Source: Arcobacteraceae bacterium (GTDB lineage: Bacteria; Campylobacterota; Campylobacteria; Campylobacterales; Arcobacteraceae). From it: 58,883 nucleotides of DNA. The notes beneath the pieces were generated by a model. It did no database searches. It saw only the letters and a program-made list of their open reading frames with translations, and was not told the DNA's origin. A program made the position numbers and the translations under genes. The stretch is taken from the NCBI GenBank assembly GCA_021107755.1, contig JAIOSF010000011.1:1-58883 (forward strand), in the 5' to 3' direction. Within the stretch, counting starts at the first letter, position 1. Each line of letters begins with the position of its first letter. Positions 36,701 to 58,800 of this stretch are shown here, piece by piece.

Positions 36701-36728
36701 AAAAGGTGGTCAAAATGACCACCTTTTT
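36699..36728. terminator. Bidirectional rho-independent terminator
   Basis: AAAAAGGTGGTCA and its perfect complement around an AAA loop, with T runs on both strands. It ends the membrane-protein gene and the convergent fdhD-tupC operon; the tupC stop lies within it. Confidence 0.93.
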
Positions 36729-37749: not shown

Positions 37750-38441
37750 TGTGTCCATTTCCTTTTTAACATAGATAATGCTATATTTACTGTTAATGCC
37801 ACTGCAAATAAAACAAGTCCCAAAGCAATACCTGTAACAAATTCACCTTTTCCTGTCTCTAATGCAATTGCAGTTGTTACAGTTCGTGTATGGTATTTTA
37901 TATTTCCACCAACCATCATCGATATACCAATCTCTGTGATAATTCTCCCATAAGCAGTCATAGCAGCTGTCATAAGACCAAATCTAGCTTCAACTAATGT
38001 GGCAACTAATATTTGATACTGATGTGCCCCTAAACCTTTTAATGATTTATATAATCTTTTATCTACAGATTCAACTTGAGCTGCTGTTAAGGCTATAATT
38101 ATAGGAAGTCCTAAAACTATTTGCCCTATAATTATTGCCTGTTGTGTAAATAATAAATTATATTCACCAAATGGTCCCACTTGAGAAAGCATAGTATATG
38201 CAATAAGTCCAATAACAACTGTTGGTAATGCTAAAAGAGTATCAACAATTGTTCTAATGACAGCTTTTCCAAAAAAATTATAATACCCAAGAAAAAAGCC
38301 AAGTGGTAAACCTATCAATAAACTAATTAACAATGACCATGATGAAACTGTTATTGTTGTTGTAATAGCAGAATATACACTCTCGTTTCCTGATATGAGT
38401 AATTCTATCGCTTCATTAAAACCATCTGTAAAAAGATTCAT
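37746..38441 (-). CDS. tupB: Tungstate ABC transporter, permease
   Basis: A 231-residue permease of the ModB/TupB type with about five membrane segments and the ABC-coupling EAA-like loop (SVDKRLYKSLKGLGAHQYQILVATLVEARFGLM). It overlaps tupC by 4 bases. It moves oxyanion delivered by TupA into the cytoplasm. Confidence 0.88.
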   Translation of the reverse strand: MNLFTDGFNEAIELLISGNESVYSAITTTITVSSWSLLISLLIGLPLGFFLGYYNFFGKAVIRTIVDTLLALPTVVIGLIAYTMLSQVGPFGEYNLLFTQQAIIIGQIVLGLPIIIALTAAQVESVDKRLYKSLKGLGAHQYQILVATLVEARFGLMTAAMTAYGRIITEIGISMMVGGNIKYHTRTVTTAIALETGKGEFVTGIALGLVLFAVALTVNIALSMLKRKWTQ

Positions 38442-38470
38442 TCTTCTAATCTACCTTAGCCTTTTTGTAT

Positions 38471-39286
38471 CTATTTTCCAGCATTAGGTATAAATAATGC
38501 TTGCCCCAATAATCTAAAATCAGCAATTGTTTGTTGTGTTTGAGGGTTTATAACCCACTGTGTAAATTGTTCTGCTAATTGAGGTTTCACATTTGCACAT
38601 TTCTCTTTATTGATAGACACTACAGAGTATTGGTTAAATAATGTTTTATCACCCTCAACTACGACTTCTAAAGTATTACTATCACCTTTTTGAGACATAT
38701 ATTTAATCCAAGTTCCTCTATCTGTCATAGTATATCCACCTTTTTCAGCAGCCATGTTTATTGTTCTTAACATACCTTGTCCTGTTTGAACATACCAACT
38801 TGAAGCAGATTTTGCATCAACATTTGCATTTTTCCATAAAGAAAGCTCTTTTTTATTTGTCCCTGAATTATCACCACGGCTAAAAAACTTCTCCTCTTTA
38901 TCTTTAATAGTTTTTAAAGCTGTACTTGGTGTCATACCTTTTATATGTGCAGGATCTTTTTTTGGTCCAATAATTACAAAATCATTATACATCACTTGTT
39001 TTCTATTTACCCCATACCCAGTAGCTATAAATTTTTTCTCAGATGCTGGTGCATGAACAAATAAAATATCTACATCACAGTTTCCACCCATTTTTAAAGC
39101 TTTTCCAGTTCCTGTTGCAACCCATTTTAGTGTAGTACCTGTATCTTTTTCAAACTTTGGAGCTAGATAATCTAAAAGTCCTGTATTATCTGTACTTGTT
39201 GTTGTTGCCATCATTAATGTATCTTTTGCAGTTAAACTTAAACTTAAAACTGCTGTTAATCCTAGTGTAATTAGTGTTTTATTCAT
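38471..39286 (-). CDS. tupA: Tungstate-binding periplasmic protein
   Basis: A 271-residue exported protein (signal peptide about residues 1-20). The binding segment MATTTSTDNTGLLDYLAPKFEKDTG contains the TTTS motif that distinguishes TupA from ModA. It lies 12 bases downstream of moeA. Tungsten uptake next to formate dehydrogenase genes suggests the enzyme uses W, although Mo cannot be excluded from sequence. Confidence 0.9.
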   Translation of the reverse strand: MNKTLITLGLTAVLSLSLTAKDTLMMATTTSTDNTGLLDYLAPKFEKDTGTTLKWVATGTGKALKMGGNCDVDILFVHAPASEKKFIATGYGVNRKQVMYNDFVIIGPKKDPAHIKGMTPSTALKTIKDKEEKFFSRGDNSGTNKKELSLWKNANVDAKSASSWYVQTGQGMLRTINMAAEKGGYTMTDRGTWIKYMSQKGDSNTLEVVVEGDKTLFNQYSVVSINKEKCANVKPQLAEQFTQWVINPQTQQTIADFRLLGQALFIPNAGK

Positions 39287-39298
39287 TTTTTCCCTTTT

Positions 39299-40546
39299 TT
39301 AGTTAAATATATTTATTCTATTTTTTATTAATTTATTGTCAAACTTAACAACAAATACCTCTTGCTTTGTATCTATAGTTGAAGTATTATTATCTGTAAC
39401 TAATATTGAGTTACTCTCATACAAAGCTGTAATCATTCCCGAACCATACTTATTATTTCTTGTTACCGTAAAATCTCCTTGTATTAAATTTCCTAAAACT
39501 AAATTTACTCTTCCTGATTTAGTTTTAAACTCTTTTTGATTTGTTGCTTTTACAACATCATGATATATATATTCACTTCCTTGAAGTTTATTTAGAACTG
39601 GTAGTGCAAAAAGATGCATATTTATCATTGCAGTAAGTGGATTACCTGGTAAGCACATCACAGCAGTTTTATCTAAACTTCCCATCATAATAGGTCGTCC
39701 AGGCTTCACATTTACCCCATGAAACATCACCTCTAATCCATTTTTTAAAAATGCTTCCCCTACAAAATCAGCTTCACCCATAGAGATACCACCTGTAGTA
39801 ATAATCACATCATACTTTTTTAAACTTTTTATGAAACTCACAGAAGATTCTAAATTATCAGGGATAACACCACCATAAGAAGCATCAAAACCTATTTGTT
39901 TTAAAAGTGCAATAAGACCAAAAGAGTTACAGTTATAGATCTCCTCATCATTTGATATTTGCCATGGTTCTTTGAGTTCATTTCCCGTTGATACAATAAT
40001 TATTGATAATTTTTTATAAACCTCTACAGTCATAATACCTTGAGATGCTAGTAAAATAATATGCGATGAGTTTAAAACTTCACCAGCTTCAAACATAACA
40101 TTACCTTGTTGTTGCTCTTCACCTTTTAATCGTAAATTTGAACCTTCTTTTATATTCTCAGGTATCCTTACACTTTCATTTGTAACATCAAAACAATGTT
40201 CTATTGGGATAATAGTATCAGCATCAGAGGGTACTTTGGCCCCTGTCATTATTTTATAACACTCGCCACTATTTAATGATTCCTTAACAGCATCTCCATA
40301 ATCTCCTGCAAAAATTGTTTTATTAATAGTAAGTGTTTTTCCAGCATCTTCAAACTTAACTGCGAATCCATCCATTGCAGAATTATTAAAAGCTGGAAGA
40401 TTTTTTATACATACAATCTCTTTTGATAAAACCCTATTCATTGCATCCCACAAAGATACAATCTCTGTTAAAGTAGTATTTGTAACAAGTTCTAAACTCT
40501 TGTCCACTGCCTCATTAAAATCTAAGTATGTTAATTGATTAGTCAT
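39299..40546 (-). CDS. moeA: Molybdopterin molybdotransferase (MoeA)
   Basis: A 415-residue MoeA with all domains: N-terminal lid (LPAFNNSAMDGFAVK), central MPT-binding domain (IIVSTGNEL, ITTGGISMGEADFV, PGRPIMMG) and a C-terminal beta domain. It inserts Mo or W into adenylated molybdopterin. Its ATG overlaps the preceding desulfurase gene by 8 bases, and its place in the fdhD-tup operon suggests it serves formate dehydrogenase, possibly with preference for tungsten. Confidence 0.92.
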   Translation of the reverse strand: MTNQLTYLDFNEAVDKSLELVTNTTLTEIVSLWDAMNRVLSKEIVCIKNLPAFNNSAMDGFAVKFEDAGKTLTINKTIFAGDYGDAVKESLNSGECYKIMTGAKVPSDADTIIPIEHCFDVTNESVRIPENIKEGSNLRLKGEEQQQGNVMFEAGEVLNSSHIILLASQGIMTVEVYKKLSIIIVSTGNELKEPWQISNDEEIYNCNSFGLIALLKQIGFDASYGGVIPDNLESSVSFIKSLKKYDVIITTGGISMGEADFVGEAFLKNGLEVMFHGVNVKPGRPIMMGSLDKTAVMCLPGNPLTAMINMHLFALPVLNKLQGSEYIYHDVVKATNQKEFKTKSGRVNLVLGNLIQGDFTVTRNNKYGSGMITALYESNSILVTDNNTSTIDTKQEVFVVKFDNKLIKNRINIFN

Positions 40547-41525
40547 TTAATATCCTTATTTGTTTATATCTTTTAAACATCAATTCTACAACTTGTATTA
40601 TCTCTGCCTCTGTCATATATTCACTAAAAGATATTGATATAGCATTTCTACTCTGATCTTGGGTATACCCCATCTCTTGAATTACTCTTGAAGGTTTTGA
40701 TAATCCTAATGAACACCCTTCCCCATTTGTAATAAGTATCTCATCTAGAGCAAGTGTTCGTATTAGCTCTCTTGCTTTAATACCTTTTAAGCCAAAATGT
40801 AGTGTATACTCTAAAGTCTCATTTGAATCTACAAAAAGATAAATATCATCACCAAAAGTTTTCAGTAAAATATCTTTAAACAGTTCTTTTAAAGAGCTAT
40901 TAAAAGAACTATTTTTATTTAATAACTCTTTGATTACCACAACTGCTAAATTATCTTTATATCCTATAGTTTGCTCTTCAAATAAACCATTTGCTAATAT
41001 TATTCCAGATATTGCAAAACCACTTAACTTATATGGGTCAAAATACAACGCATCACTTTTAGTTGATATATCAAAGCTTCCGTTAGAGATAATTTTTCCG
41101 TTTGTTATTTTTTTAAGACTTTCTAAATCATTTTTTACATAAGTATCTACTGTATATGAAGAGATAAATATAAAATCTAAATTACTATTTTTTATACTAT
41201 CAATATCTATATGTCCATCTTGCTTTAAACCAATCCAAACAACATCAAACCCTAAAGATTCATAAAGTTTACCTGCTTCATATAGTGCCTCTGTTTCACC
41301 TACACTAATGGCAATTTTCCCTTGCAATCCTAAATGACACAGTAAGCTTAAAAATCCATCACTATTAAATGAAAATGATTTTAAATCTCCAAAGTTAAAT
41401 GACCTTAATAAATCAGCCTCTAATTTTAAATAGGTATCATTATTTTTTAATATATCCAATGCAAAATCAGCAGATACTGCTATATCTTTCGGTACTGGGT
41501 ATTGATGGGTATTTAACTTTATCAT
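40539..41525 (-). CDS. Cysteine desulfurase-like PLP enzyme of the fdh operon
   Basis: A 328-residue class V aminotransferase-fold protein, about 60-70 residues shorter than IscS. The PLP lysine is Lys166 in DPYKLSGFAISGIIL, the equivalent of the IscS HK-xx-GP-xG motif. The persulfide cysteine is Cys271 in ITNGEGCSLGLSKPSRV, like the SACTS loop of IscS. N-terminal family motifs are weak. FdhD needs sulfur from a cysteine desulfurase to activate formate dehydrogenase, so this is probably a dedicated sulfur donor. It overlaps moeA and sits one base from the ModE-like gene. Confidence 0.75.
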   Translation of the reverse strand: MIKLNTHQYPVPKDIAVSADFALDILKNNDTYLKLEADLLRSFNFGDLKSFSFNSDGFLSLLCHLGLQGKIAISVGETEALYEAGKLYESLGFDVVWIGLKQDGHIDIDSIKNSNLDFIFISSYTVDTYVKNDLESLKKITNGKIISNGSFDISTKSDALYFDPYKLSGFAISGIILANGLFEEQTIGYKDNLAVVVIKELLNKNSSFNSSLKELFKDILLKTFGDDIYLFVDSNETLEYTLHFGLKGIKARELIRTLALDEILITNGEGCSLGLSKPSRVIQEMGYTQDQSRNAISISFSEYMTEAEIIQVVELMFKRYKQIRILND

Positions 41526-41894
41526 TTAACTCTCTTTAAGATGTAATATATCTGTTTTACTATCGATAAATAAATCTTTAAATCTCTCTTGTGTATAGGC
41601 TCGAACATCTTTTTTGAGTATTTTAAAGTTTTCAATTATCTCTTTTGCTTTTGGAGTAAGTGTACTTCCACCTTGCTCTCCACCACCTTTTTGGGTTATT
41701 ACAAGTTCATCCTCAATATACTTTTCAAGCACTTTTATATGTGTCCATGTTTTTTTGTAATTTAATCCCATCATTTGTGCTGCTTCAGCGATTGAGCCTT
41801 TTTCATCTATATACTCTAGAATTTCAGTTTTTCCACCACCAAATACTAAATTATTTTTATCATCTTCAATCCATACTTTAACTCTTACTTCCAT
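41526..41894 (-). CDS. ModE-like winged-helix regulator without anion domain
   Basis: A 122-residue winged-helix protein of the ModE N-terminal/LysR-like type (EYIDEKGSIAEAAQMMGLNYKKTWTHIKVLEKY, GGGEQGGSTLTPKAKEIIENF). The C-terminal molybdate-binding MOP domains of classical ModE are absent, as in the ModE-like proteins of Campylobacter. Likely role: oxyanion- or cofactor-responsive control of fdh or tup genes. It lies in the operon it may regulate and overlaps the upstream gene by 17 bases. The palindrome at 43112-43130 is a candidate target. Confidence 0.8.
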   Translation of the reverse strand: MEVRVKVWIEDDKNNLVFGGGKTEILEYIDEKGSIAEAAQMMGLNYKKTWTHIKVLEKYIEDELVITQKGGGEQGGSTLTPKAKEIIENFKILKKDVRAYTQERFKDLFIDSKTDILHLKES

Positions 41895-44750: not shown

Positions 44751-47582
44751 CTAAGCTCTTTCAATTCGACACAATCCACCTTTTGTCTCAGGGATTTGTG
44801 TAACAATGTCGTAACCATAATTAGTTACTGTATTTGCGCTCTCACCAATTGCGTATGGTGCTGTTCCTTCTGGGTACTTATGTAATAAGCTCTCCCCTTC
44901 CATAACACCTGCAAAATGAAATGGTAAGAACACTCTATCTTCAGATACACTATACGAATACTTAGCTTTTACTTTTATCTTAGTACCTTGTGGTGAATGT
45001 ATCCACATCATAGAACCATCTCTGATACCATGTCGTCCAGCTAAGTCTGGATTAATATCACAGAACATCTCTGGTGTTAACTTCGCAAGATACTTCGATG
45101 CTCTATTTTCCATACCAGCACCATTTAAGTTTACAAGTCTACCTGTCACAAGATTTACTGGGAAATCTTTTGCCCAATCTTGTTTACTTTGTTCACTCAC
45201 ATATCTTGTATCAACTCTATAGTGATCTTTTTTGTCTGCAAAACTTGGATACTTTTTAGTCAAATCTGTTCGTGGAGAGTGTAATGGCTCTCTATGTAAC
45301 GGTATTTGATCTGCAAATGTCCATACTTTTGCTCTAGCTTTTGCATTTCCATAAGGAGCGATTCCTCTCTCCATACATTTTTCAGCGATAATATTAGATG
45401 TATCAACTTTCCAGTTTTTACCTATTCTCTTTTTCTCGTCTTCTGTTAATGTAATACCAAGAACTTTTTCAATATTGTCTTTGGTAATTTCTGGATAACC
45501 ATCTTTATTTGCAGAGTCTTTAGGTGCACTACCTTTGCCTGCAAGTAAATCTTGACCATCATGTTCTAGACCAAATCTATTTCTAAATCCCATACCACCT
45601 TCAGCAACACTTCTGTTGATGTTATATAATAATGGTGAACCAGAATGTTTTTCAGTCCAACAAGGCCATGGTAAACCATAATACTCACCAGTCATATCTC
45701 CATATCCTCGACCAGACACCTCGTCAAACATATGCCAATTTTCTTGATGTTCTTTCAATCTTTTTGCTGTCCAACCTGTTAAACCAATAGTTTTAATAGT
45801 TCTAGCAATCTCATCAGTCGCATCTTCTGGCCAATTGTAGTTAGTTTTATTTTCTCTAACTTTCATACCAGCAGTAAGCTGTTCATAAAAACCTAATCTC
45901 TTAGCTAATTCAAACATAATATCTTGATCTGCTTTTGATTCATACATTGGTTTAACTACTTCACTTCTCCACTGAGCAGATCTGTTTGTAGCAGTAACCG
46001 AACCTGCTGTTTCAAATTGTGTAGCAGCTGGTAAAATATATACATCATCTTGCTTATCAGTAATAATTGCACCCTCATTTACAAATGGGTCACAAAATAC
46101 TGCAATATCAAGATTATCTAATGCTTCTTTTACTTTTTTAGTTTGTGCTGTTGATGTAATACCATTACCCATTACAAATAAAGCTTTTAATCTTGTACCT
46201 GCATTGTGAATTGCATCTTCTCCTGGATTACCACCAAGAACTCCAGCCCACCATCTAGCTAATGTAAATCCTTTTTTACCCATCCATGATGGATCTTTAA
46301 ATCTACCTTGAAGCCAATCAAAATCAACATTCCACATTTTTGCAAAATATTTCCAAGAACCTTCACTTAATCCATAATACCCTGGTAATGTATGTGATAA
46401 ACAACACATATCAGTAGCACCTTGAACATTATCGTGACCTCTTAAAATATTACATCCACCACCTTCAACACCCATGTTTCCAAGAGCAAGTTGTAAAATT
46501 GGAGCCATTCTTGTATTTGAACTTCCGTTAGTATGTTGAGTAAGTCCCATAGCCCAGATTAAAGTACCTGGAGTATTTTGTGCATAATGTTTAGTGATTT
46601 GAACAATTAAATCTGCTTTAACACCTGTAACATCTGCTACTCTTTCAATAGGCCAATTTTTAGCCTCTTTCATAATATCTTCCATACCATAAACTCTATC
46701 TTTGATAAAGTCTTCGTTATGCCATCCATTTTCAAATATAATATTTAACATCCCATACATAAATGGAATATCAGTACCTGGTCTAATTTGTGCATAATAA
46801 TCAGCTTTTGCAGCTGTTTTTGTAAATCTAGGATCTACAACAATTATTTTTGCATTGTTTCTCTCTTTTGCTTTTAAGAAATGTTGGAATCCAACTGGGT
46901 GATTAACCGCAGGATTTGCTCCAAAAATAATGATCGCTTTTGAATTCTGGATATCTCCCAGAGAATTTGTCATAGCACCATAACCCCATGTATTTGCCAC
47001 ACCGGCAACTGTTGAGCTATGTCAAATTCTAGCTTGATGATCTATATTATTTGTTCCAAACATTGCAGCAAATTTTCTGAAGTAATATGATTGCTCCGTA
47101 CCAAATTTTGCTGACCCTAAAAACATTGCTGAATCTGGTCCATCAGTTTTTCTTAAAGATTCTAATTTAGATGCAATTCCATCTAAAGCTTCATCCCAAG
47201 AAATTCTTTGCCATTTTCCACCTTTTTTTACCATCGGGTGTTTTAATCTTACCTCTGATCTAACCATATCAATCATATCAGCACCTTTACAACAGTGCCC
47301 TCCAAGTGATACTGGATGATCTTGAGCAACTTCCTGTCTTACCCAAACACCATTTTGAACTTCTGCTAATATACCACAACCAACTGAACAAGCTGTACAA
47401 ATAGTTTTCACCATTTTAGAACCTGGGAATGGATTTTTAATCTCTTCCGCAGTTGCTTCTCTTGTTGCGTTTGCACTAGCAAAAGATGATGTGACACCAA
47501 ATGCAGTAGCAATAGCAGACATTTTTAAAAATGATCTTCTACCAACTTTTGCACTGAGTGTTTCATATGTATTTATTGACAT
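44751..47582 (-). CDS. fdhA: Selenocysteine formate dehydrogenase, catalytic subunit
   Basis: A 943-residue protein read through an in-frame TGA at 47022-47024 (residue 187) as selenocysteine: HQARI-U-HSSTVAGVANTWGYG, the exact site of the active-site Sec/Cys in formate dehydrogenases. The N-terminus has a Tat signal (GRRSFLKM, Arg15/16), so it is exported folded; then come the [4Fe-4S] cysteines (ICTACSVGCG, GGHCCKG) and the Mo/W-bis-MGD domains. The frame is open on both sides of the TGA, a SECIS hairpin follows it, and selD, selA, selB and tRNA-Sec are in the same window. Confidence 0.95.
46994..47024 (-). promoter_or_regulatory. Sec UGA codon and SECIS element of fdhA
   Basis: Reading the minus strand, TGA (47022-47024) is followed after 13 bases by the hairpin TTGCC-GGTGT-GGCAA (46994-47008). 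The GG-U-containing apical loop and the distance match bacterial SECIS elements that bind SelB. Confidence 0.8.
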
Positions 47583-47904: not shown

Positions 47905-48678
47905 TTAAAGACTCTCCTCCACATCATAAGCTATATCAATTGGACATGATTCATCTATTCTATTTTTTGGTCCAAGTGCTTTTAATGCTTTATTTTTAGC
48001 TCTTCTTTGAGCTTCCTCTTCTGAAATATCTTCACATGATTCTTTCACTATTTTTTCTTTTGGAAGTGGTTTTGAAACTTCTAAATATAATCTTTCAAAT
48101 GCTATAAAAGAGTGAAGAACTACCATAAGATCTTTATAAATATCTGCAGATTCATGCTCATAAATTTGAGCTGCTACTTCATCAACAAATTCGTTTAATA
48201 TTGATGAAAATATACAATGTATCGTGTTTGAATATTCTTCTTCACCTTTTGCAACTAACTCACATAGTTCAGCTAAAAATGCAAATATAAATCCAATAGA
48301 ATCTTCATATTCATAAAAATTTTTTTCATCTCGTCTTAGTTTTGTTTTTGCTATAAACTGAAGCATCTCTACTCTTTTTTTACCAGACTCAATTCCCTCA
48401 TCATAAAAAGAGGCTGTAAGTCTTACCTTTTGAGTCAACGGATTATAAAAAAGATTATCATACTCTTCAACTAACTTTACATTTGATGTGGGATCTAATT
48501 TATTTGATAACTCAATAAGTGCTGCACCAGATGAACTATCTAAAGAGTTTTCTTTTAGTATATTAACTAATCTGACTAACTCTAAATAATTAGTAGTATC
48601 ACTTGCCACTATAAAAAAGTTTGCAAATGTGTTGTAGTATAAAGCTCGTGCTTTTGTTATATCTTGGTTATTAGGCAT
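47905..48678 (-). CDS. TorD-family chaperone for formate dehydrogenase
   Basis: A 257-residue all-helical TorD/DmsD-like protein (RALYYNTFANFFIV, LVEEYDNLFYNPLTQKVRLTASFYDEG, DSIGFIFAFLAELCELV). These chaperones hold the apo-catalytic subunit and its Tat signal until the cofactor is inserted. A C-terminal tail (about residues 215-257, with CPIDIAYDVEESL) goes beyond the domain. It overlaps the polyferredoxin gene by 8 bases. Confidence 0.83.
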   Translation of the reverse strand: MPNNQDITKARALYYNTFANFFIVASDTTNYLELVRLVNILKENSLDSSSGAALIELSNKLDPTSNVKLVEEYDNLFYNPLTQKVRLTASFYDEGIESGKKRVEMLQFIAKTKLRRDEKNFYEYEDSIGFIFAFLAELCELVAKGEEEYSNTIHCIFSSILNEFVDEVAAQIYEHESADIYKDLMVVLHSFIAFERLYLEVSKPLPKEKIVKESCEDISEEEAQRRAKNKALKALGPKNRIDESCPIDIAYDVEESL

Positions 48679-50362
48679 CTACTGCTCCTTGAGATTTTTT
48701 ATCATAATAACTTTGCATCATTATTTTTGGTTTACAGTCTGCACAACAATATAAACTTCTCTCTTTAACTGGGTCTGATGAAAATATTGGAGACATCATT
48801 GTTGCAATTTTTTGAATTGATTTTACTGTTGCAAACTCTTTTCCACACTCAACACAGGCAAAAAGTTCATCTTTGGCTAATATGTTTTCTTTAAACCAAT
48901 TTGGTTCTAACTCAATAATATCTCGCTCTATAGTTAAACAATCAGCTTCAGGACAAGAAACTTCACAGTAACCACATGAGGTACAAAGACTTGGGTTGAG
49001 TCGTAGTGTGTTATCTTTTGCTTCTGCTTGAAGTGCATTCACATTACAAGCTCCAACACACACTAAACATAAAGTACAATTAGCCTCATTTACTTTTACT
49101 TTTGCATAATGGATATGTTCACCTGTTTGTACAACACCTAAATTCTCATCACCTACAATATGTTTTAATCGTAATGAAAAAATTTCTCTTTTACTGAAAC
49201 TTTCTTGTGCTAGGTTATAGTAAGAGTCTTCGATAAATGAAACTTTTTCTAAAGCCTCTTGGAGTTGTTCTTTATCTTGAGCTACTAAAATAACATCTTT
49301 ACCATATTTTTTTTGATAAATATCATTGAGTATTCTAATAGCATCACCAGTACCCTTAGAGATAAAATCAGTGTAAAATACAATTTGAGATGCTGATATT
49401 TGCGCTAAGGTTAAAAGAGTTGATTCATGTAAAAACTTCTCACCATCAATTGAAAATGGTAATACATTCTCTTTTAATTCTACTTGTAGGTTCTCTATAT
49501 CCATTTTACTTGGGATGATTAAAGGGTGTGTTTCTTTATAAAATTTACTCATCTCAAACAGTGCTTCTTTATTTGAAGCAGCATAATCCAATGCACCACT
49601 AGGACATACAGAGATACAACCGCCACAACCATGACAATCAATTTGGGAAAATTCTAGATGTTTTTTTTCATCATCTTTTAATATAGCAACAGTAGGACAA
49701 ACCTCTTCACACTTAGAGCATATCTCTTCTCTTCTTTCGTGATATTGACAAATAGTTGAATCATAAGTGGTAAATTTTGTATATTCAAAAGATTCTATAT
49801 TAGCTCTTACTGTGGATAATACTTCTTTCAATGATGATTGTAAAGGATCAAATATACCACTTTGTTTCAGTCCCAACTCTTGTGCATCAAACCAAACTAT
49901 TTGATCAATTTGTACTGTGATATCTTTATTGTTTTTATCAACAACAACTGTTAGGTTTCCGATATGACCCTCGATTGATTTTATACTATCACTTTGGATG
50001 TAATATAAATCAAACTCATCTTTATCTATATTTGACATAAAAGTTTTTGCTTCATCTTCAGTAGCTACTAATAAAACTTTATTTTCAATATTAGCTGAGT
50101 ATGAAATATCTTGTGCGTAATCATATTTTGTTGCTGCAATCTCATAAAGTTTATGCACATTAATTATTTTATCAGCAATACTATCTTGTGTATTGTTTAA
50201 ATAAAAATCTACATCTTTTGTGTAAACTTCTGAGTTAACTTCACCATTATTAGATATTAAAAAGCGTTTACTTTTTAATTCTTCTACATTTGAAGAGACT
50301 GTGATTTCCTCATTTAAAGGAAAATCTAAATTGATTTTGTTGTAATATACAAATTCTGACAT
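48671..50362 (-). CDS. Polyferredoxin-like protein of the fdh operon
   Basis: A 563-residue cytoplasmic protein with two pairs of [4Fe-4S] motifs: CSKCEEVCP with CHGCGGCISVCPSG (about residues 215-260), and CTLCLVCVGACN with CTSCGYCEVSCPEADC (about 435-480). A C-terminal CVECGKEF...CCADC region may bind zinc. It has no signal peptide or membrane segment. Genes like this open fdh clusters in Campylobacterota, but the role (electron transfer or assembly) is not known. First gene of the operon; the inverted repeat at 50386-50403 lies just upstream. Confidence 0.8.
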   Translation of the reverse strand: MSEFVYYNKINLDFPLNEEITVSSNVEELKSKRFLISNNGEVNSEVYTKDVDFYLNNTQDSIADKIINVHKLYEIAATKYDYAQDISYSANIENKVLLVATEDEAKTFMSNIDKDEFDLYYIQSDSIKSIEGHIGNLTVVVDKNNKDITVQIDQIVWFDAQELGLKQSGIFDPLQSSLKEVLSTVRANIESFEYTKFTTYDSTICQYHERREEICSKCEEVCPTVAILKDDEKKHLEFSQIDCHGCGGCISVCPSGALDYAASNKEALFEMSKFYKETHPLIIPSKMDIENLQVELKENVLPFSIDGEKFLHESTLLTLAQISASQIVFYTDFISKGTGDAIRILNDIYQKKYGKDVILVAQDKEQLQEALEKVSFIEDSYYNLAQESFSKREIFSLRLKHIVGDENLGVVQTGEHIHYAKVKVNEANCTLCLVCVGACNVNALQAEAKDNTLRLNPSLCTSCGYCEVSCPEADCLTIERDIIELEPNWFKENILAKDELFACVECGKEFATVKSIQKIATMMSPIFSSDPVKERSLYCCADCKPKIMMQSYYDKKSQGAVDA

Positions 50363-50385: not shown

Positions 50386-50414
50386 GGTAAAAAATTCTTT
50401 ACCTAAATTTTATA
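50386..50414 (-). promoter_or_regulatory. Putative operator GGTAAA-N6-TTTACC at the fdh operon promoter
   Basis: GGTAAAAAATTCTTTACC (50386-50403) is an 18-bp inverted repeat. On the minus strand a -10-like TATAAA (50409-50414) lies just before it, so the repeat covers the expected transcription start, 24 bases before the first ATG. The same 18-bp architecture is found at 56097-56114. Confidence 0.6.
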
Positions 50415-50492
50415 GGATTACTATTTAACTCTAGCTTAAATTATAAAAAAAAATCACTTATTTATAAAAGCTTTATTTATATATATTTTTTG

Positions 50493-50503: not shown

Positions 50504-51649
50504 ATGTTAAAAAGATTACCTATACTTATATTTTTACTTATATTATTTTATGTATATACTAAAGAAAGAAATTTCAAAGAAAACACCATAAAAATAGGTA
50601 CTTCACTGCCAAATACTGGTATGATTAAACAGTGGGGAAAATCTGTAGAAGCAGGTGCAAACTCCTATTTTAAATATGCTAATGAAAACAATATTATAAA
50701 AGATAAAAAAATAGATTTAATAATATATGATGATAAATATGAACCTGATTTAACTCTAGATAATCTTAAGAAACTAATATATATTGATAAAGTTTATGCA
50801 CTTTTTGGTTTTGTTGGCACCCCAACAGTAAAAAATATATTACCAATTTTGGATGAAGAAAACATACCATTAATAGCTCCATTTACAGGTGCCTCTTTTT
50901 TAAGAAGAAAAAATCATTCAAACTATATAAATTTTAGAAGCTCATATAATGAAGAGATAGAGACGCTGGTTAAATATCTTAACGATACCAAGAAACTAAA
51001 TAAATTTGCTGTTTTTTACCAAAACGATGATTATGGTGAAGAGGGTTATGTTTCACTAATTAATTCACTCAAAAAGAGGAACCTTCAACTTGTAGCAGAA
51101 GGTTCTTATAAGAGAAATACTATCTCTATAAATCATGCAATACATGAAATAAGGCATACAACTCCTGAAGTTATAATGATGATTGGTGCGTATAAAGCTA
51201 ACGCCCTATTTATAAAAAAAGCAAAAGAAGATTCAAATTTTAAAAACACTATATTTTGTAATATATCATTTGGAGATGCAAATGCAATGGTTCATGAGTT
51301 ACAAGCATTAAATGTTGATACAAAAAACTTAATATTCTCACAAGTTGTTCCTAACTATTTAGATAGTTCTATCCCCGTTGTAAAAGAGTATCAAACATTG
51401 ATGAAAAAATATTATCCAGATGAAAAACTTAGTTTTATATCTCTTGAAGCATTTCTAGCATCAAAAACTTTTGTTTGGGCACTTTCTAAAATTGAGGGGA
51501 ATATTACAAGAAGTAAACTCTTAAAATTATTAAAAAAAGTTCCGCCTAATCTTTTAGAGGGTTTACACTTAAATTTTAAGAACTCACAACTACTAAATAA
51601 AATTTATCTTTTTGAATATGAAAAATCAACATTTAAGCTCATAAAATAA
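50504..51649 (+). CDS. Periplasmic ligand-binding protein of a three-component system
   Basis: A 381-residue Peripla_BP_6/LivK-like protein with an N-terminal hydrophobic signal (about residues 4-18). Fold markers are IKIGTSLPNTGMIKQWGKSVEAGANSYF, VYALFGFVGTPTVKNILPILDEENIPLIAPF and FAVFYQNDDYGEEGY. No amino-acid permease genes are near; instead its stop shares one base with the kinase start (TAATG). It most likely binds a small solute and presents it to that kinase. Divergence from the fdh operon makes a formate-related ligand plausible but unproven. Confidence 0.82.
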   Translation: MLKRLPILIFLLILFYVYTKERNFKENTIKIGTSLPNTGMIKQWGKSVEAGANSYFKYANENNIIKDKKIDLIIYDDKYEPDLTLDNLKKLIYIDKVYALFGFVGTPTVKNILPILDEENIPLIAPFTGASFLRRKNHSNYINFRSSYNEEIETLVKYLNDTKKLNKFAVFYQNDDYGEEGYVSLINSLKKRNLQLVAEGSYKRNTISINHAIHEIRHTTPEVIMMIGAYKANALFIKKAKEDSNFKNTIFCNISFGDANAMVHELQALNVDTKNLIFSQVVPNYLDSSIPVVKEYQTLMKKYYPDEKLSFISLEAFLASKTFVWALSKIEGNITRSKLLKLLKKVPPNLLEGLHLNFKNSQLLNKIYLFEYEKSTFKLIK

Positions 51650-53217
51650 TGAAAAACTTACTTAATCAGATAACAACTTATTATGAAAATTTAGATTTTA
51701 AATACAAAACAGGTTTCTTAGTATTTATAATCACTGGTGGGATGTTATGGATTATAATATTTTCACAAATCTCTATTTTTACAATTAAGCAAGATTTCGA
51801 TGTTTTATATGATACAAGAACAAAAAAAATTATCCGTTTAGAAAATATAAAAGATGCCTATAATGTAAATATAAAAGATACACTTCATGATTTAAAAAAT
51901 AATGATATTACAAAAGCACAATCAATAGATGTCCTTGAACTTGCAATTGATATTATAGATAAAAATTGGAAACTATATAAAGAAAATATTTATAAACCAC
52001 AAAAACCTTTCTTTATCAAAAAATTTCTTGTTAAAGAAGATAAATACTATGAAAATAAAACTTTAGAAAAAAGCCTTATAAATAATATAGATAAAAAACT
52101 TCTCACTATTAAAAGCAATATTTATACTATTATAAAATCAAAAAAAATTCCTAGTATTGAAAATTTAAATCTTCAAATTAATGCTATTAGTATCTATATT
52201 ACTAGTTTAATTAACTATGATTTATCACTTGCTGTACAAGAACAAAGAAATACTCAAAAAAGCTTTAATACAATTATGATTTTGTCAATTATTGCTATTA
52301 TTTTAGTATTTTTATTTTCTGTTTTATTTTCAATTCTTATTATCAATAACTTTAAGAACCTCCATAATTCTCTCGAAGAAAAAGTTACAAATAAAACGAA
52401 AGAGCTAATGGAACTTAATAAATACCTTAAGGTGAAAGTATCAAAAGAGGTTTCACAAAACAGAAAAAAAGATCTTATCATGTTTCAACAAGCACGATTT
52501 GCCAGTCTGGGTGAGATGCTTAATAATATTGCACACCAATGGCGACAGCCATTGGGTTCTATTACTATGATTATTCAAAGTTTCCAAACAAAAATGGAGA
52601 TGGGAAAACTTACAAATGAATTAATACAAACAAAAGTAGATGATGCCCTACTTCTTGCTAATAATATGTCAAATACTCTTGATGATTTTAAAAACTTTTT
52701 TAGTCCTGCAAAAAATAAAAGTATATTCTTTATAAGTGATTGTATTGAACACTCAATAGAGTTATCAAAATATCTTCTTGAAGCACAAAATATTCAGCTA
52801 AAACTTGAAATAAAAGATAATCTGGAACTTAACACCTATTATAATGAATTATCTCATGTTTTTTTAAATATTATTTCTAATTCCAAAGATGCTTTAAGTG
52901 CAACTTCTAAAAAAAATGATAAAATTATAAAAATTATTGTTAGCGAATTTAGAGATACCGTTATTATCAATTTTTTAGATAATGGTGGTGGTATAGATGA
53001 AGAGATTGTACCAAAGATTTTCGAACCTTACTACACAACAAAATATAAAAGTGCTGGTACTGGTATAGGGCTTTATATGTCAAAACAAATTCTTGAAAAA
53101 CATATGAATGGTTCAATAACCTATAAAAATATTTTACATAAAATCGATGATCTTAATAATGATAAATGTTCACTATTTACAATAAAAATACCAATCAATG
53201 AAAACAAGGTAATATAA
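51649..53217 (+). CDS. Sensor histidine kinase of the three-component system
   Basis: A 522-residue kinase: membrane segment 1 (about residues 21-41), a periplasmic domain of roughly 165 residues, membrane segment 2 (about 207-232), a coiled coil (EEKVTNKTKELMELNKYLK), the H-box NNIAHQWRQPLG (His296), the N-box FLNIISNSKDAL, and the G-boxes LDNGGGID and GTGIGLYMS. Overlaps of one base with both neighbours (TAATG) point to tight co-translation. Confidence 0.9.
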   Translation: MKNLLNQITTYYENLDFKYKTGFLVFIITGGMLWIIIFSQISIFTIKQDFDVLYDTRTKKIIRLENIKDAYNVNIKDTLHDLKNNDITKAQSIDVLELAIDIIDKNWKLYKENIYKPQKPFFIKKFLVKEDKYYENKTLEKSLINNIDKKLLTIKSNIYTIIKSKKIPSIENLNLQINAISIYITSLINYDLSLAVQEQRNTQKSFNTIMILSIIAIILVFLFSVLFSILIINNFKNLHNSLEEKVTNKTKELMELNKYLKVKVSKEVSQNRKKDLIMFQQARFASLGEMLNNIAHQWRQPLGSITMIIQSFQTKMEMGKLTNELIQTKVDDALLLANNMSNTLDDFKNFFSPAKNKSIFFISDCIEHSIELSKYLLEAQNIQLKLEIKDNLELNTYYNELSHVFLNIISNSKDALSATSKKNDKIIKIIVSEFRDTVIINFLDNGGGIDEEIVPKIFEPYYTTKYKSAGTGIGLYMSKQILEKHMNGSITYKNILHKIDDLNNDKCSLFTIKIPINENKVI

Positions 53218-53879
53218 TGGAAAACAGAAATTTAAATATTCTACTTGAATTTAATATACTCTATTTAGAAGATGATATAAACTTATCAAAACATACAACA
53301 GATGTACTTGAAGATTTTGTAAAAAATATCTATTCAGTACAAACATCACAAGAAGCTATGGATATAATTAAAACAAAAAAAATAGATCTTATTATTTCAG
53401 ATATATTACTTGAAAATGAAAATGGTATTGATTTTTTAAAAGAACTTAAAAATAATAATATCTCTATACCTGCCATATTAACTACAGCATATACCGATAC
53501 CAAATATTTACTTGATGCTATACAACTTAAAGTGGAAAACTATATCATCAAACCTATCAATATAAAAGAGCTTTTAAATACACTCCATGATGTACTACTC
53601 CCTATTGTACAAGAAAAACAAATCAAAAAAAATACAAATGTCATTAAAACTATCTCTGCTGTGACCGATTCAAAACAAGTGGAGGTGGTAAAATATATTA
53701 TTGCTAACTTAGATAGTAATAACCAATTAATTACTTCATATAGTGAGATTACAGATACTATATCTATTTCTAAACCAACATTAATAAAACTATTTAAAGA
53801 GTTAACAGAGAAAAATATTTTAATCAAAACTTCACATAAGACTTATAGATTTAACGAACAAGCACTAGATAATATGTAA
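53217..53879 (+). CDS. Response regulator with winged-helix output
   Basis: A 220-residue regulator. Receiver domain with acidic pair Glu18/Asp19/Asp20, phospho-acceptor Asp62 in LIISDILLENENG, and Lys in YIIKPINIKEL. The output part (about 150-220) reads ISAVTDSKQVEVVKYI and then a helix-turn-helix ITDTISISKPTLIKLFKEL with a wing-like end; this is not the OmpR or NarL type. It probably controls genes nearby such as fdh or sel, perhaps via GGTAAA-N6-TTTACC (inference). Confidence 0.85.
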   Translation: MENRNLNILLEFNILYLEDDINLSKHTTDVLEDFVKNIYSVQTSQEAMDIIKTKKIDLIISDILLENENGIDFLKELKNNNISIPAILTTAYTDTKYLLDAIQLKVENYIIKPINIKELLNTLHDVLLPIVQEKQIKKNTNVIKTISAVTDSKQVEVVKYIIANLDSNNQLITSYSEITDTISISKPTLIKLFKELTEKNILIKTSHKTYRFNEQALDNM

Positions 53880-54244: not shown

Positions 54245-54517
54245 CTACTCTTGAACAACTCCTGTATATGTTGTAGTTTTAATAGCTTGTAAAATATTGG
54301 TTTCATCTATTTTAGATTCATCATATTTTACTTTAGCTATTTTTGTATTTAGAGTCACCTTTACCGCTTCTACACCATCAAGCTTTTTTATTGCTTTTTT
54401 AATCATCATAGTACAAAGTGGACAGTGCATCTTATCAATTTTGATATTTACTGTCTTACCAAAAGAAAATGAGATAGGTAAGAACAACAAGACTAAACTT
54501 ATAAATATTTTTCTCAT
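54245..54517 (-). CDS. MerP-like periplasmic heavy-metal-binding protein
   Basis: A 90-residue protein with a signal peptide (about residues 1-20) and one HMA domain with DKMHCPLCTMMIKKAIKKLDGVEAVKV, the CxxC metal site as in MerP. It follows the MerT-like gene by 3 bases. It would carry Hg(II) or another soft metal to the membrane transporter. No mercuric reductase is in the window, so copper or another cation is possible. Confidence 0.82.
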   Translation of the reverse strand: MRKIFISLVLLFLPISFSFGKTVNIKIDKMHCPLCTMMIKKAIKKLDGVEAVKVTLNTKIAKVKYDESKIDETNILQAIKTTTYTGVVQE

Positions 54518-54520
54518 ATT

Positions 54521-54844
54521 TTACTCCACAAAATAAACTGAAAACTCAGGATAAAATAATAATATCATCAACCCTAAACCAAATAAAACAATACTAATAT
54601 ATGTTTTAAGTTTTTTACTTTCACACTCACATTTCATTTTTTGTTTTTTTGTTAAAATAAAAATTATAAAAAATAGTACTGAGAGAATTCCAAGAGGAAT
54701 CCTTAAAAAGTCTAACTGTATTAAAAATGACAATGAACCTAAAGAGATACCAAAAAACAGAAATAAAAATGCTGGTAAACAACATGCAGTTGAAAGTACA
54801 GCAGTAACTACTGCTGATACTACAAAACTACGATTTTTCATCAT
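54521..54844 (-). CDS. MerT-like metal transporter
   Basis: A 107-residue protein with three membrane segments. The first contains the vicinal cysteines STACCLPAFLF as in MerT, and a cytoplasmic loop has CECESKK. It imports metal passed on by MerP. It overlaps the transglutaminase gene by 4 bases (ATGA). Together with MerP and no MerA this may be a non-mercury system. Confidence 0.78.
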   Translation of the reverse strand: MMKNRSFVVSAVVTAVLSTACCLPAFLFLFFGISLGSLSFLIQLDFLRIPLGILSVLFFIIFILTKKQKMKCECESKKLKTYISIVLFGLGLMILLFYPEFSVYFVE

Positions 54845-55935
54845 TTTTCTTGAGAAGTGTACTGATATTTGAAGTTTTTTGCATCGTAATAATCTACAAC
54901 ATCATCATCCATCTCAGCATAAGGATACCCAAGCATATTTAAAGGGTATTGCGCTGGTTTTGGTTCTAATATAAAATCTCTAGCATAATTAAATGCTACC
55001 CAGTTCATCTCCCAATTTCCAAAGAAATATTTTTTTAGATCTTGAATCTTTTTATCATTGATATCTCGTTTTTCTTGCTTCATAACTTTTGTTACATCTG
55101 CTGGATCTGCTGGAACCCAACCTATACCATTGAGATAAAACTCTGCACGACAATGTTGTCCACCTGTAATCTTTGCAAAACCTTTTTCATCAGCTTTACC
55201 ACAAGATTTTGATATTTTTGAAGCACCTGCTCTTATACCAAATACTTCTCTTGCTGGAATTCCAGCATTTCTTAAAAGTGCTACAAATATAGAACTTACA
55301 TCTGTACATTTTCCACCAAATAGCTTCTCTTCTATAATTCTAGTAGCATCTCCTACTCCACAACCTAGAACTTTTTCATCTCTATACATATGAGATACTG
55401 TCCAGTCAAATATTTTTTGACTTTTTTCTAAAGGTGTATCATTTTTATCTACAATAGTATATACAAAATTTGTGATAGTTTTTGATAATGGTGTATGTGT
55501 AGTACCTTTTAAAAACTCTTTCACTTTAGTTGGAAAAGTTGTACTATTAGTTGCTAAATTTAGGTTAACACTTCTTTCACTCATACTTACTTTAAAATGT
55601 ACTTTTAATTTTCTTGATTTACTATTTTTATTCCATTTTGCATACAATAATTTTGTATTATATGGATTGTTATTTGAAATATGAGCTTCATCAAAATCTC
55701 CCTCATAAGAGATATCTAAAACCTTTTGATACTCACTATCAAGAGGTAGAGGAACCCAAAGTTGTGCTACTTGATTATTTATCTCTAATTCAAATGAATT
55801 TTCAATAGAAAAAACTCTTGTATCTTTTGTGATACCAAATCTATAAATATCAGAATTAGCAAATAGTATATTTGGAGCTATTACAGCCGAACTTGCAAGT
55901 ATTGTTGCACCTTTTAGAAATAATCTTCTTTCCAT
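54841..55935 (-). CDS. Tat-exported transglutaminase-like protein
   Basis: A 364-residue protein with a twin-arginine signal (MERRLFLKGATILASSAV). The transglutaminase-like domain (about residues 160-300) has the Cys in GGKCTDVSSIFVALLRNAGIPAREVFGIR, the His in QHCRAEFYLNGIGWVPAD and the Asp following, giving a complete Cys-His-Asp triad. Members can be peptidases or amidases. The link to the MerT/MerP-like pair downstream (4-base overlap) is unusual and its meaning unclear. Confidence 0.8.
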   Translation of the reverse strand: MERRLFLKGATILASSAVIAPNILFANSDIYRFGITKDTRVFSIENSFELEINNQVAQLWVPLPLDSEYQKVLDISYEGDFDEAHISNNNPYNTKLLYAKWNKNSKSRKLKVHFKVSMSERSVNLNLATNSTTFPTKVKEFLKGTTHTPLSKTITNFVYTIVDKNDTPLEKSQKIFDWTVSHMYRDEKVLGCGVGDATRIIEEKLFGGKCTDVSSIFVALLRNAGIPAREVFGIRAGASKISKSCGKADEKGFAKITGGQHCRAEFYLNGIGWVPADPADVTKVMKQEKRDINDKKIQDLKKYFFGNWEMNWVAFNYARDFILEPKPAQYPLNMLGYPYAEMDDDVVDYYDAKNFKYQYTSQEK

Positions 55936-56096
55936 TGTTTACCTTTTTTAGAGTCTGTAACTCTTTTTATTTTTGTTCGTAAGGAAACTCCTTATACAAA
56001 AGGTAAAGTAATATATACTTCATCTTAATACCATAACCTATGGTTTTGAACTTGTTACTGAAATAATAATAGATTAAAATAAAAATAAACTTAAAA

Positions 56097-56114
56097 GGTA
56101 AAATATATTTTACC
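56097..56114. promoter_or_regulatory. Palindrome GGTAAA-N6-TTTACC upstream of selD
   Basis: GGTAAAATATATTTTACC is a perfect 18-bp palindrome with the same arms and spacing as the repeat at 50386-50403. A T run follows, so a weak hairpin terminator is an alternative, although no gene ends just before it. Confidence 0.55.
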
Positions 56115-56201
56115 AATTTTTTTTACTAACTTTAATTATATTTATACTATACTTTTATAATAAAGCACCTAAGGTATAGGTATACATAGATATAACTTCA
56201 A

Positions 56202-56255: not shown

Positions 56256-57293
56256 ATGAAAAGTAAATATAAATTAACCAAATTTGTACAAGCAGCTGGT
56301 TGAGCAGCAAAAATGGGTCCGGGGGACCTGAAACAAACTATTTGCCAACTTAAACCAGATAATGAAAATATACTTGTAGGATTTGAAAATAATGAAGATG
56401 CATCAGTATTTAAAATAAATGATAATGAGGCATTGGTACAAACACTTGATTTTATAACACCAGTTGTTGATGATCCATATATCTATGGAAAAATTGCAGC
56501 AGCAAACTCTTTGTCAGATATATTTGCGATGGGTGCTGATGTGAAAACTGCTATGAATATAGTGGGTTTTGATGCTAAAAATTTTGGATATGAAGTTTTA
56601 AATGAGATACTTCGTGGCGGAAATGATAAAATAAAAGAGTGTGGTGGAGTTTTAATGGGTGGACACACCATTGAAACACCTGAGATGTACTATGGATTAA
56701 GTGTAACAGGGATGATACACCCCTCAAATATTTTAAAAAATAACAGTGGAAAAATTGGAGATGTTTTAATACTTACAAAGCCAATTGGGCTTGGTGTATT
56801 AACAACTGCAATAAAAAGAGATTTACTAGACCCCTCTATGATAAAGGAAGTAATAAAAGTAATGGAATGTTTAAACTATGAAACTTCAAAGATATTAAAA
56901 GAGTATAGAGTAAGTGCTTGTACAGATATTACAGGGTTTAGTCTTTTAGGACATAGTTTAGAGTCAACAAGAGATGATATATCTTATAAACTTTATAATG
57001 ACTCTATTCCTGTTTTTGATAAAGTAAGAGAACTTACAGAACAAGATGTAGTACCAGGTGGAAGTAAAAAAAATAAAAAATACTTAGAAGATAAAGTATC
57101 CTATGCATCAAGTATTAGTGAGATAAGAAAACAAATTTTATGTGATGCACAAACTTCAGGAGGGCTTTTAGTAGCAATAGATAAAAATGATGCCAAAGAA
57201 TATCTAAAAAGAATAGAGAATTTTACTTTTGGATATGCAAAAATTATTGGGGAAATTGTCCCAAGAGTTGATAAGCCAATTGTTGTTGTTTAG
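56256..57293 (+). CDS. selD: Selenide, water dikinase (selenoprotein SelD)
   Basis: A 345-residue SelD starting at ATG 56256 with an in-frame TGA at 56301-56303 read as selenocysteine (residue 16): KFVQAAG-U-AAKMGPGD, the catalytic position of SelD, where other species have Cys or Sec. The rest is full length with DNEALVQTLDFITPVVDDPY and GGHTIETPEMYYGLSVTG for ATP/Mg binding. It makes selenophosphate for Sec synthesis, so it needs its own product. A start at ATG 56313, just after the TGA, would lose the catalytic residue and is rejected. Confidence 0.93.
56301..56330 (+). promoter_or_regulatory. Sec UGA codon and SECIS-like hairpin of selD
   Basis: TGA (56301-56303) is followed after 11 bases by GGGTCC-GGG-GGACCT, a GC-rich hairpin with G's in the loop. 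Placement and loop bases fit a bacterial SECIS, although the hairpin is also part of codons for the conserved GPGD. Confidence 0.7.
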
Positions 57294-57298
57294 GGAAA

Positions 57299-57397
57299 TG
57301 GTGAGAAGGTGTAGGAATCGAACCTACCGAGGCGTTTACACAAATACCTCCAATCAGGGTTGAAACCTGTGGTGTCCACCAGGATCACATACCCCCC
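57299..57397 (-). tRNA. selC: tRNA-Sec (anticodon UCA)
   Basis: On the minus strand: anticodon arm CAGG-TTTCAAC-CCTG with anticodon UCA, T-arm GTAGG-TTCGATT-CCTAC, an encoded CCA, and a long variable arm closed by GAGGT/GCCTC, all typical of tRNA-Sec. The 5' end GGGGGGT can pair with the 3' acceptor strand (ACCTTCTC) only with several G-U pairs, so the exact 5' boundary is uncertain. A -10-like TAAAAT (minus, 57410-57415) lies 13 bases upstream. It lies antisense between selD and selA. Confidence 0.85.
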
Positions 57398-57450
57398 AAA
57401 AACAAAGAAATTTTACACAATAAATATTAAAATAAACTGAAAGGGTAAAA

Positions 57451-58800
57451 ATGTTTTTACTAAAATCTATACCTAAAGTGGATAAGTTTGTCCAACACAA
57501 AGCCTTTAGTGCGATGTCAGCTAAATTGATAACTAAAATATCAAAAGATATTATACAAAAACTTAGAGATGATATTTTAGAAGAGAAAGCAACATCTGTG
57601 GATGAGAATCTTCTTATTGAAGAGGTTCTAAAAAAATACAAAGAGATAACCTCACCATCCTTACAAAAAGTTATTAATGCCACAGGGGTAATAGTACATA
57701 CAAATTTAGGAAGAAGTCTTATCTCTCCTGAAAGCTTTGATAGAGTTAAAGATATTGTAACTTCATATAATAATTTAGAGTATGATTTAGAAAAAGGACA
57801 ACGGGGAGAACGATATTCTCATATCTCAAATACTCTTTGTCAACTTCTTGATTGTGAAGATGTTTTAATAGTTAACAATAATGCAAGTGCAGTATTTTTA
57901 GTTCTTAATACTTTTGCTAAAAATAAAGAAGTTGTAGTAAGTCGAGGAGAACTTGTGGAGATTGGTGGTAGTTTTCGAGTTCCTGATGTTATGGCAAGTA
58001 GTGGAGCTATTTTAAAAGAGATTGGTACAACTAATAAAACACACCTAAAAGACTATGAAAATGCTTGCAATGAAAACAGCGCAATTCTGATGAAAGTACA
58101 TAAGTCAAACTACTCAATTGAAGGCTTTTCAAGTGAAGTATCTCATGAAGAGATAGTCAATGTAGCTACAAAAAACAATCTAATAGATTATTATGATATG
58201 GGTAGTGGTCATATGATTGATTTACCATATAATTTAAATCAAACAGAACCTAGTGTAAAAGAAATTATGAAAGTAAATCCAAGTTTAGTAAGCTTTTCTG
58301 GTGATAAACTTTTAGGTTCAGTACAAGCTGGAATTATTGTAGGGAAGAAAAAGTATATAGATAAATTAAAGAAAAACCAACTCTTAAGAATGTTACGAGT
58401 TGATAAACTTACCCTTGCTATTTTAGAAGACAATATCATCTCGCTTCTTCTTGATAAAAAAGAAAATATTCCTACTTTAAATATGCTTTTTACTCCAATA
58501 ACTACTCTAAAGTCTAGAGCTAGTGAGGTAGAAAATAAAATACAAAATATTTGTACTTGTAATATTATTGAAACTCAAACAGTTATTGGGGGTGGAACAA
58601 CTCCAAATAAAAAGATACCTACTATTGCTTTAAGTATTGAATTTAAAAATTATAAACCAAGTAAAATAGAAAAACTTTTTAGAGAAAAAAAAGTTATAGG
58701 TAGAATTGAAAACGATAAGTTTTTATTAGATTTTAGAAGTATTCAAGATTCAGAAATAGAATCAATAACTAAGATAATTAGTGAAATTTGTAATGGATAA
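57451..58800 (+). CDS. selA: L-seryl-tRNA(Sec) selenium transferase
   Basis: A 449-residue SelA with the usual N-terminal helical domain (LPKVDK-like start [18 protein letters not shown]), the motif [18 protein letters not shown], and the PLP lysine in [25 protein letters not shown]. It converts Ser-tRNA(Sec) to Sec-tRNA(Sec) using selenophosphate from SelD. AAAGGG precedes the ATG. Overlaps selB by 8 bases. Confidence 0.95.

Follow-up and report, generated by a model that had tools for sequence, protein, structure and literature searches.

A conserved RGTAAA-N6-TTTACY palindrome as the probable operator of a selenium-formate regulon in Arcobacteraceae and neighbouring families

Introduction

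Transcriptional regulators of the LysR_Se/HrsM kind have been described for selenium metabolism in Methanococcus and selenium-using bacteria (PMC5322559, PMC9312934), and the selenium transcription regulators named in the parts of the literature consulted were of the LysR type. The passages on LysR_Se/HrsM in those two papers do not mention the operator described here. In C. jejuni, the FdhT/FdhU (YedE/YedF) proteins exert post-transcriptional control of formate dehydrogenase (review PMC6682613, from Shaw et al. 2012), and the relevant sections of that review, which covers respiratory regulation in these bacteria, place selenium control of formate dehydrogenase at the level of accessory proteins only.

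The locus analysed here lies in a stretch of 58,883 nucleotides from an Arcobacteraceae bacterium (GCA_021107755.1, contig JAIOSF010000011.1), referred to below as the window. It resembles the LysR_Se/HrsM systems in that transcriptional control is tied to selenium and selenocysteine genes; however, those regulators are one-component LysR proteins, whereas the candidate in this case is a system of periplasmic binding protein (PBP), kinase and response regulator (RR) together with a palindrome for which the papers found give no description. Like FdhT/FdhU, it ties selenium acquisition to a selenocysteine formate dehydrogenase, and YedE/FdhT itself is one of the operator targets, but FdhT and FdhU have been described as post-transcriptional accessory proteins and not as a transcriptional regulon. 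A search of open-licence papers yielded no description of an RGTAAAN6TTTACY operator.

Periplasmic-binding-protein-coupled two-component systems include TorT-TorS-TorR and LuxP-LuxQ. Adjoining genes for a periplasmic binding protein, a membrane kinase and a response regulator are common to these systems and to the window; the differences are that the binding protein here is of the Leu/Ile/Val type, that the regulator has a RepL-like winged helix rather than an OmpR or NarL domain, and that the targets concern selenium and formate. Palindromic operators ahead of anaerobic respiratory genes are also familiar as FNR/Crp boxes, but the half-sites and spacing of those boxes (TTGAT-N4-ATCAA) differ from GGTAAA-N6-TTTACC, and an FNR/Crp box was rejected as an identity for the operator sequences.

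Results

Two palindromes in the window and the genome

Two GGTAAAN6TTTACC palindromes of 18 bp each, GGTAAAAAATTCTTTACC at 50386-50403 and GGTAAAATATATTTTACC at 56097-56114, were present in the window. Both had been reported in the first-pass annotation and were confirmed by pattern scan, as was its statement that the window holds no other match. These two were also the only exact matches in the whole 2.62-Mb genome, in which the reversed pattern, used as a control, had none. Over 104 genomes of the family the reversed control gave 45 exact matches, approximately 0.43 per genome or 0.01 per 59 kb, in agreement with the earlier estimate of about 0.01 chance matches per window.

The wider form RGTAAAN6TTTACY matched eight times in the genome. 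Apart from the two sites, four matches fell within unrelated genes, one overlapped the start codon of selA and another was located at the 3' end of a gene. Promoter-type sites of this form were therefore confined, within this genome, to the two intergenic regions of the fdh/sel module, and the full-genome scan proposed by the annotation revealed no excess of intragenic matches. The copy at the start of selA (57444-57461), which has one mismatch, is composed of the ribosome-binding site, the ATG and conserved Leu codons; it was rejected as an operator and is probably fortuitous. When one mismatch was allowed, 24 matches were found across the genome compared to 22 for the reversed control, which is background level. 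This background level is in line with an AT-rich coincidence in the window, but the palindrome recurs in dozens of genomes at positions that are orthologous, as well as at an unlinked yedE gene, which has already refuted chance or composition as the explanation, and its probability is negligible.

Genes around the two sites

Site 1 separates a plus-strand signalling gene set (50504-53879) from a divergent, minus-strand run of fdh genes. The signalling set encodes a Leu/Ile/Val-type periplasmic binding protein, PBP6 (50504-51649, plus strand; Pfam Peripla_BP_6 and PDB relatives), a histidine kinase (51649-53217, plus strand; Pfam HATPase_c) and the RR (53217-53879, plus strand), a candidate binder with a RepL-like match, for which the structure model comprised a receiver and a winged helix-turn-helix (mean pLDDT of 88). 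The minus-strand run consists, in order, of genes for FeSX, a TorD-like protein, a small Tat protein, selenocysteine FdhA, FdhB, FdhC and FdhD, an unnamed open reading frame, a ModE-like gene, a desulfurase-like gene, moeA and tupABC. FeSX (48671-50362, minus strand), the first gene of the operon, encodes a multi-[4Fe-4S] ferredoxin-like protein recognised by Pfam Fer4 matches and family tracking. The fdhA gene (44751-47582, minus strand; Fdh-alpha match) carries an in-frame selenocysteine TGA at 47022-47024 within the motif NIDHQARI-U-HSS.

Two further features of this run were recorded. The desulfurase-like gene (40539-41525, within the fdh-tup run) encodes a cysteine-desulfurase-like PLP protein that scored below all NCBIfam cut-offs and also adjoins fdhD in G021, and the tupABC-type tungstate transporter genes (36727-39286) follow the fdh run, with a TupA score of 337 bits against a cut-off of 400. 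In four genomes (G003, G014, G078 and G079; L166, L167, L188 and L196) a cysteine FdhA adjoins the same module, and some of these cysteine operons border the same operator.

The ModE-like or TupR-like protein of the run (41526-41894) might itself bind the palindrome, with molybdate or tungstate as the signal; it has DNA-binding character (ModE_repress 69 bits, below the cut-off of 98.5) and is encoded together with fdh and tupABC. However, several genomes that keep the sites, among them G002, G003, G004, G012, G014, G015, G017 and G019, yielded no relative at E ≤ 1e-10, and its absence from many site-bearing genomes makes this protein a most improbable binder.

Site 2 lies between the transglutaminase-merT-merP unit on the minus strand and selD on the plus strand, followed by selA and an antisense tRNA-Sec. 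The selD gene, for selenophosphate synthetase (56256-57293, plus strand, with its ATG at 56256), has, like fdhA, an in-frame selenocysteine codon of its own (TGA at 56301-56303). The selenocysteine synthase gene selA lies at 57451-58800 (plus strand), and the tRNA-Sec gene (57303-57397, minus strand) lies between selD and selA. In an Rfam search of the window nothing reached the gathering threshold, and only tRNA-Sec came just under it. The divergent unit begins with a transglutaminase-like gene (54841-55935, minus strand; Pfam) and continues with a MerT-like small membrane protein (54521-54844, minus strand), which had weak matches to the MerT_CopZ_Se and MerTP models, below cut-off, and a MerP-like metal-binding protein (54245-54517, minus strand). 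This unit (54245-55935) accompanies selD and has the operator at a near-fixed distance. The annotation had placed the second site upstream of selD, which was correct; the site also faces the divergent unit, as it does in relatives, so that it can serve both.

The operator at fdh promoters

Among the Arcobacteraceae genomes that carry both the RR and FeSX, 70 of 70 had a site within 130 bp of FeSX, with at most one mismatch to RGTAAAN6TTTACY; the match was exact in 58, and the expectation from shuffled sequence for those 70 regions was 1.2. In most genomes its position relative to the FeSX ATG was -30 to -42. All 57 PBP6|FeSX intergenic regions in GTDB genomes held the operator, including named records from Sulfurospirillum, Poseidonibacter, Malaciobacter and Aliarcobacter, and a second, torD-led fdh operon bore it in six g10 genomes.

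In the window, site 1 lies 24-41 bp ahead of the FeSX ATG and just 3' of the presumed -10 element of the fdh operon (TATAAAAT, 50407-50414, minus strand), and alignment placed it directly 3' of a TATAAAAT- or TATAGAAT-like -10 in relatives. The fdh upstream regions often had a second operator copy 54-55 bp further upstream, just ahead of a direct repeat of the type TTTAAG-N5-TTTAA. The fdh promoter of the window has only the copy placed after the -10, with no upstream copy; its direct repeat (TTTAAGCTAGAGTTAAA, 50424-50440, minus strand) lies in the -35 region. This repeat is conserved, and upstream of FeSX it persists where the palindrome is missing (L284, L285 and L305), as in the f15 loci. 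It is a possible site for a second regulator.

Operator copies at selD, transglutaminase and yedE

In several genera the same palindrome preceded a number of transcription units with related functions, not all of them linked. At selD, 61 promoters had an exact site when the pattern was relaxed slightly to RGTAAAN6TTTAMY; some selD genes had no site, for example those of G042, G055, G067 and G086-G089. The transglutaminase genes had an exact site in 33 of 39 cases at a near-constant distance, mostly -148 to -162 (-179 in the window). Where selD and the transglutaminase gene are apart (G003, G032 and G057) each had its own copy, one of those in G057 being mismatched. The yedE/fdhT selenium transporter gene, which is unlinked from the fdh locus, had an exact site in 29 of 31 cases, and its product was identified as NCBIfam selen_YedE_FdhT (598 bits, cut-off 350). 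No yedE gene was detected in the window's own genome at the threshold used.

Downstream of the operator, matches to TATAAT (at least five of six positions) clustered at a distance of 29 nt for yedE and fdh and of 30-32 nt for selD. At yedE, selD and many fdh promoters the operator thus precedes the -10 by about 30 nt, which places its centre near -52. That three kinds of promoter share one geometry suggests an activator, and the extra copy after the fdh -10 would suit repression.

This geometry also bears on whether the palindrome could act as an RNA hairpin or attenuator in 5' leaders. At fdh it would sit near the 5' end of the transcript, but the selD, transglutaminase and yedE sites are upstream of the presumed -10 (by about 30 nt at selD and yedE), where transcription is not expected, and a role in RNA is very unlikely.

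A hairpin in the leaders of three targets

In the course of this analysis a leader hairpin of at least six pairs, with a loop of 3-5 bases containing GG (most often GGU or GGA), was observed at 37 of 39 transglutaminase, 26 of 31 yedE and 17 of 74 selD genes, where composition-preserving shuffles predict about one per gene set. At yedE three of six pairs had changed on both sides with pairing kept in 100% of cases; at the transglutaminase gene three of five pairs showed covariation, and the selD signal was weaker. The hairpin is often followed by UACAU or GACAU, and examples from yedE leaders are L309:1367-1458 and L328:1368-1459. In the window, the selD leader has such a hairpin at 56167-56181 on the plus strand (ACCTA-AGGTA-TAGGT, followed by ATACAT), its loop containing GGU, and the transglutaminase hairpin (ACCATA-GGT-TATGGT) lies at 56030-56044 on the minus strand, both coordinates being hand-counted to within 2 nt. 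There was no Rfam match to it in the window or in eight tested loci.

Control of the E. coli selAB leader is SECIS-like and involves a hairpin with a loop G. The hairpins described here share that loop G and their position in selenium-gene leaders, but they are found on selD, transglutaminase-merTP and yedE, with a candidate link to SelB. SECIS hairpins of this bacterial group have a 5-6 bp stem and an invariant G in the loop (PMC4607533). A 5-6 bp hairpin, an apical-loop G and compensatory changes were all found in the leader element, which, by this resemblance, is a candidate SECIS-like or riboswitch-like element.

Co-occurrence of the operator and the response regulator

Exact sites in the 104 family genomes numbered 109 compared with 33 for the reversed control in RR-positive genomes, and 16 compared with 12 in RR-negative genomes. 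At FeSX loci a site was present in 82 of 83 RR-positive cases and in none of 14 RR-negative cases. The RR-negative set consisted of 12 f10 genomes, G070 and G117, in all of which neither RR nor site was detected; these 14 genomes represent only three independent absences, so the Fisher p-value overstates the evidence because the RR-negative lineages are few. The RR group extends to other families of the order, and at f16, f20, f9 and f6 loci a site (at most one mismatch) lay beside FeSX in 12 of 13 cases, all with the PBP6/kinase/RR system. In the f20 and f9 loci selA follows the RR gene; in G318 (f7) no fdh gene adjoins the signalling genes, and a site lies between them and the selD-selA pair that they face.

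The association had exceptions in both directions. The f15 loci have an RR of about 50% identity and keep the direct repeat but not the palindrome; exact f15 matches inside the PBP6 gene were dismissed as coding coincidence. The RR was also kept in G021, which has neither selD nor FeSX, and in G258, and no site was found in either. Conversely, G066, G088, G089 and G097 had a site with no detected RR, a gene that may be missing through assembly gaps only: the G089 contig ends within the kinase gene, and the G097 assembly, with its site at selD, is 88% complete. Where PBP6 does not adjoin a target gene the site was absent (0 of 8), which indicates that the operator follows the targets and not the signalling genes. 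Autoregulation of the signalling genes through the operator was not supported by these eight cases.

Discussion

The first-pass annotation had proposed a regulon coupling formate dehydrogenase with selenium metabolism, and the scan of related genomes that it called for bore this out: sites were conserved at fdh/sel genes, with the operator at fixed positions before fdh, selD, transglutaminase-merTP and the unlinked yedE. Whatever protein binds it, RGTAAA-N6-TTTACY is, on this comparative evidence, almost certainly the conserved operator of a selenium-formate regulon.

The annotation had added that the adjacent RR perhaps exerts this control. That part gained from the co-occurrence (82 of 83 compared with 0 of 14) and lost from the genomes that keep the RR without a site, and it stays a correlation. 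Together with co-occurrence, the position of its gene, the winged helix and the placement of selA beside it in f20 and f9 make the RR encoded at 53217-53879 the best candidate binder, by correlation only. Because f15, G021 and G258 keep the RR without the palindrome, and unlinked signalling genes lack it, the target of the RR may be the direct repeat, the palindrome or both.

In a different arrangement, the palindrome would be a true selenium-regulon operator bound by another, unlinked factor, such as a one-component regulator of the LysR_Se/HrsM kind or another that responds to selenium or redox state, and the RR would act through TTTAAG-N5-TTTAA at the fdh -35. In f15, which has the RR and no palindrome, nothing but the direct repeat has been retained; the operator tracks target genes rather than signalling genes; and the relevant parts of PMC5322559 and PMC9312934 name LysR_Se/HrsM as the selenium regulator. 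Set against this, the palindrome and the RR go closely together in several families and are both missing in f10, G070 and G117, and the window contains no recognised LysR_Se gene, its sole LysR-type helix-turn-helix belonging to the ModE-like protein. We regard an unlinked factor as plausible, though not as the probable answer. The explanation as a whole, a regulon with the adjacent RR as binder of the palindrome, is one towards which we lean slightly, its RR part being drawn from co-occurrence.

With the RR as binder, a dimeric regulator, most likely the RR driven by the adjacent PBP6-kinase pair, would bind the palindrome. At selD, transglutaminase-merTP, yedE and many fdh promoters, where the regulator would sit some 50 bp ahead of the start, binding would lead to activation; at the copy that directly follows the fdh operon's -10, it would either block that promoter or modulate it. 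Selenium uptake, selenophosphate and selenocysteine synthesis and the selenocysteine formate dehydrogenase would thereby be made together. For the signal, we infer a selenium compound or a formate-related cue. A more elaborate scheme, which we find doubtful and offer tentatively, would have two layers: the PBP/kinase/RR system would sense the selenium or formate cue and act on the RGTAAAN6TTTACY operator at Sec-fdh, selD, transglutaminase-merTP and yedE, and the GGU/GGA-loop leader hairpin at selD, transglutaminase and yedE would contribute feedback, either SECIS-like (through SelB) or in the manner of a riboswitch.

With an operator and its targets defined, the link between selenium and formate becomes directly testable, and a candidate sensor is indicated. 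The transglutaminase-merT-merP unit is now placed among selenium genes. As the comparative data support well, the operator appears to tie together selenium uptake, selenocysteine synthesis and selenium-dependent formate oxidation in the relatives of Arcobacter and in several neighbouring families.
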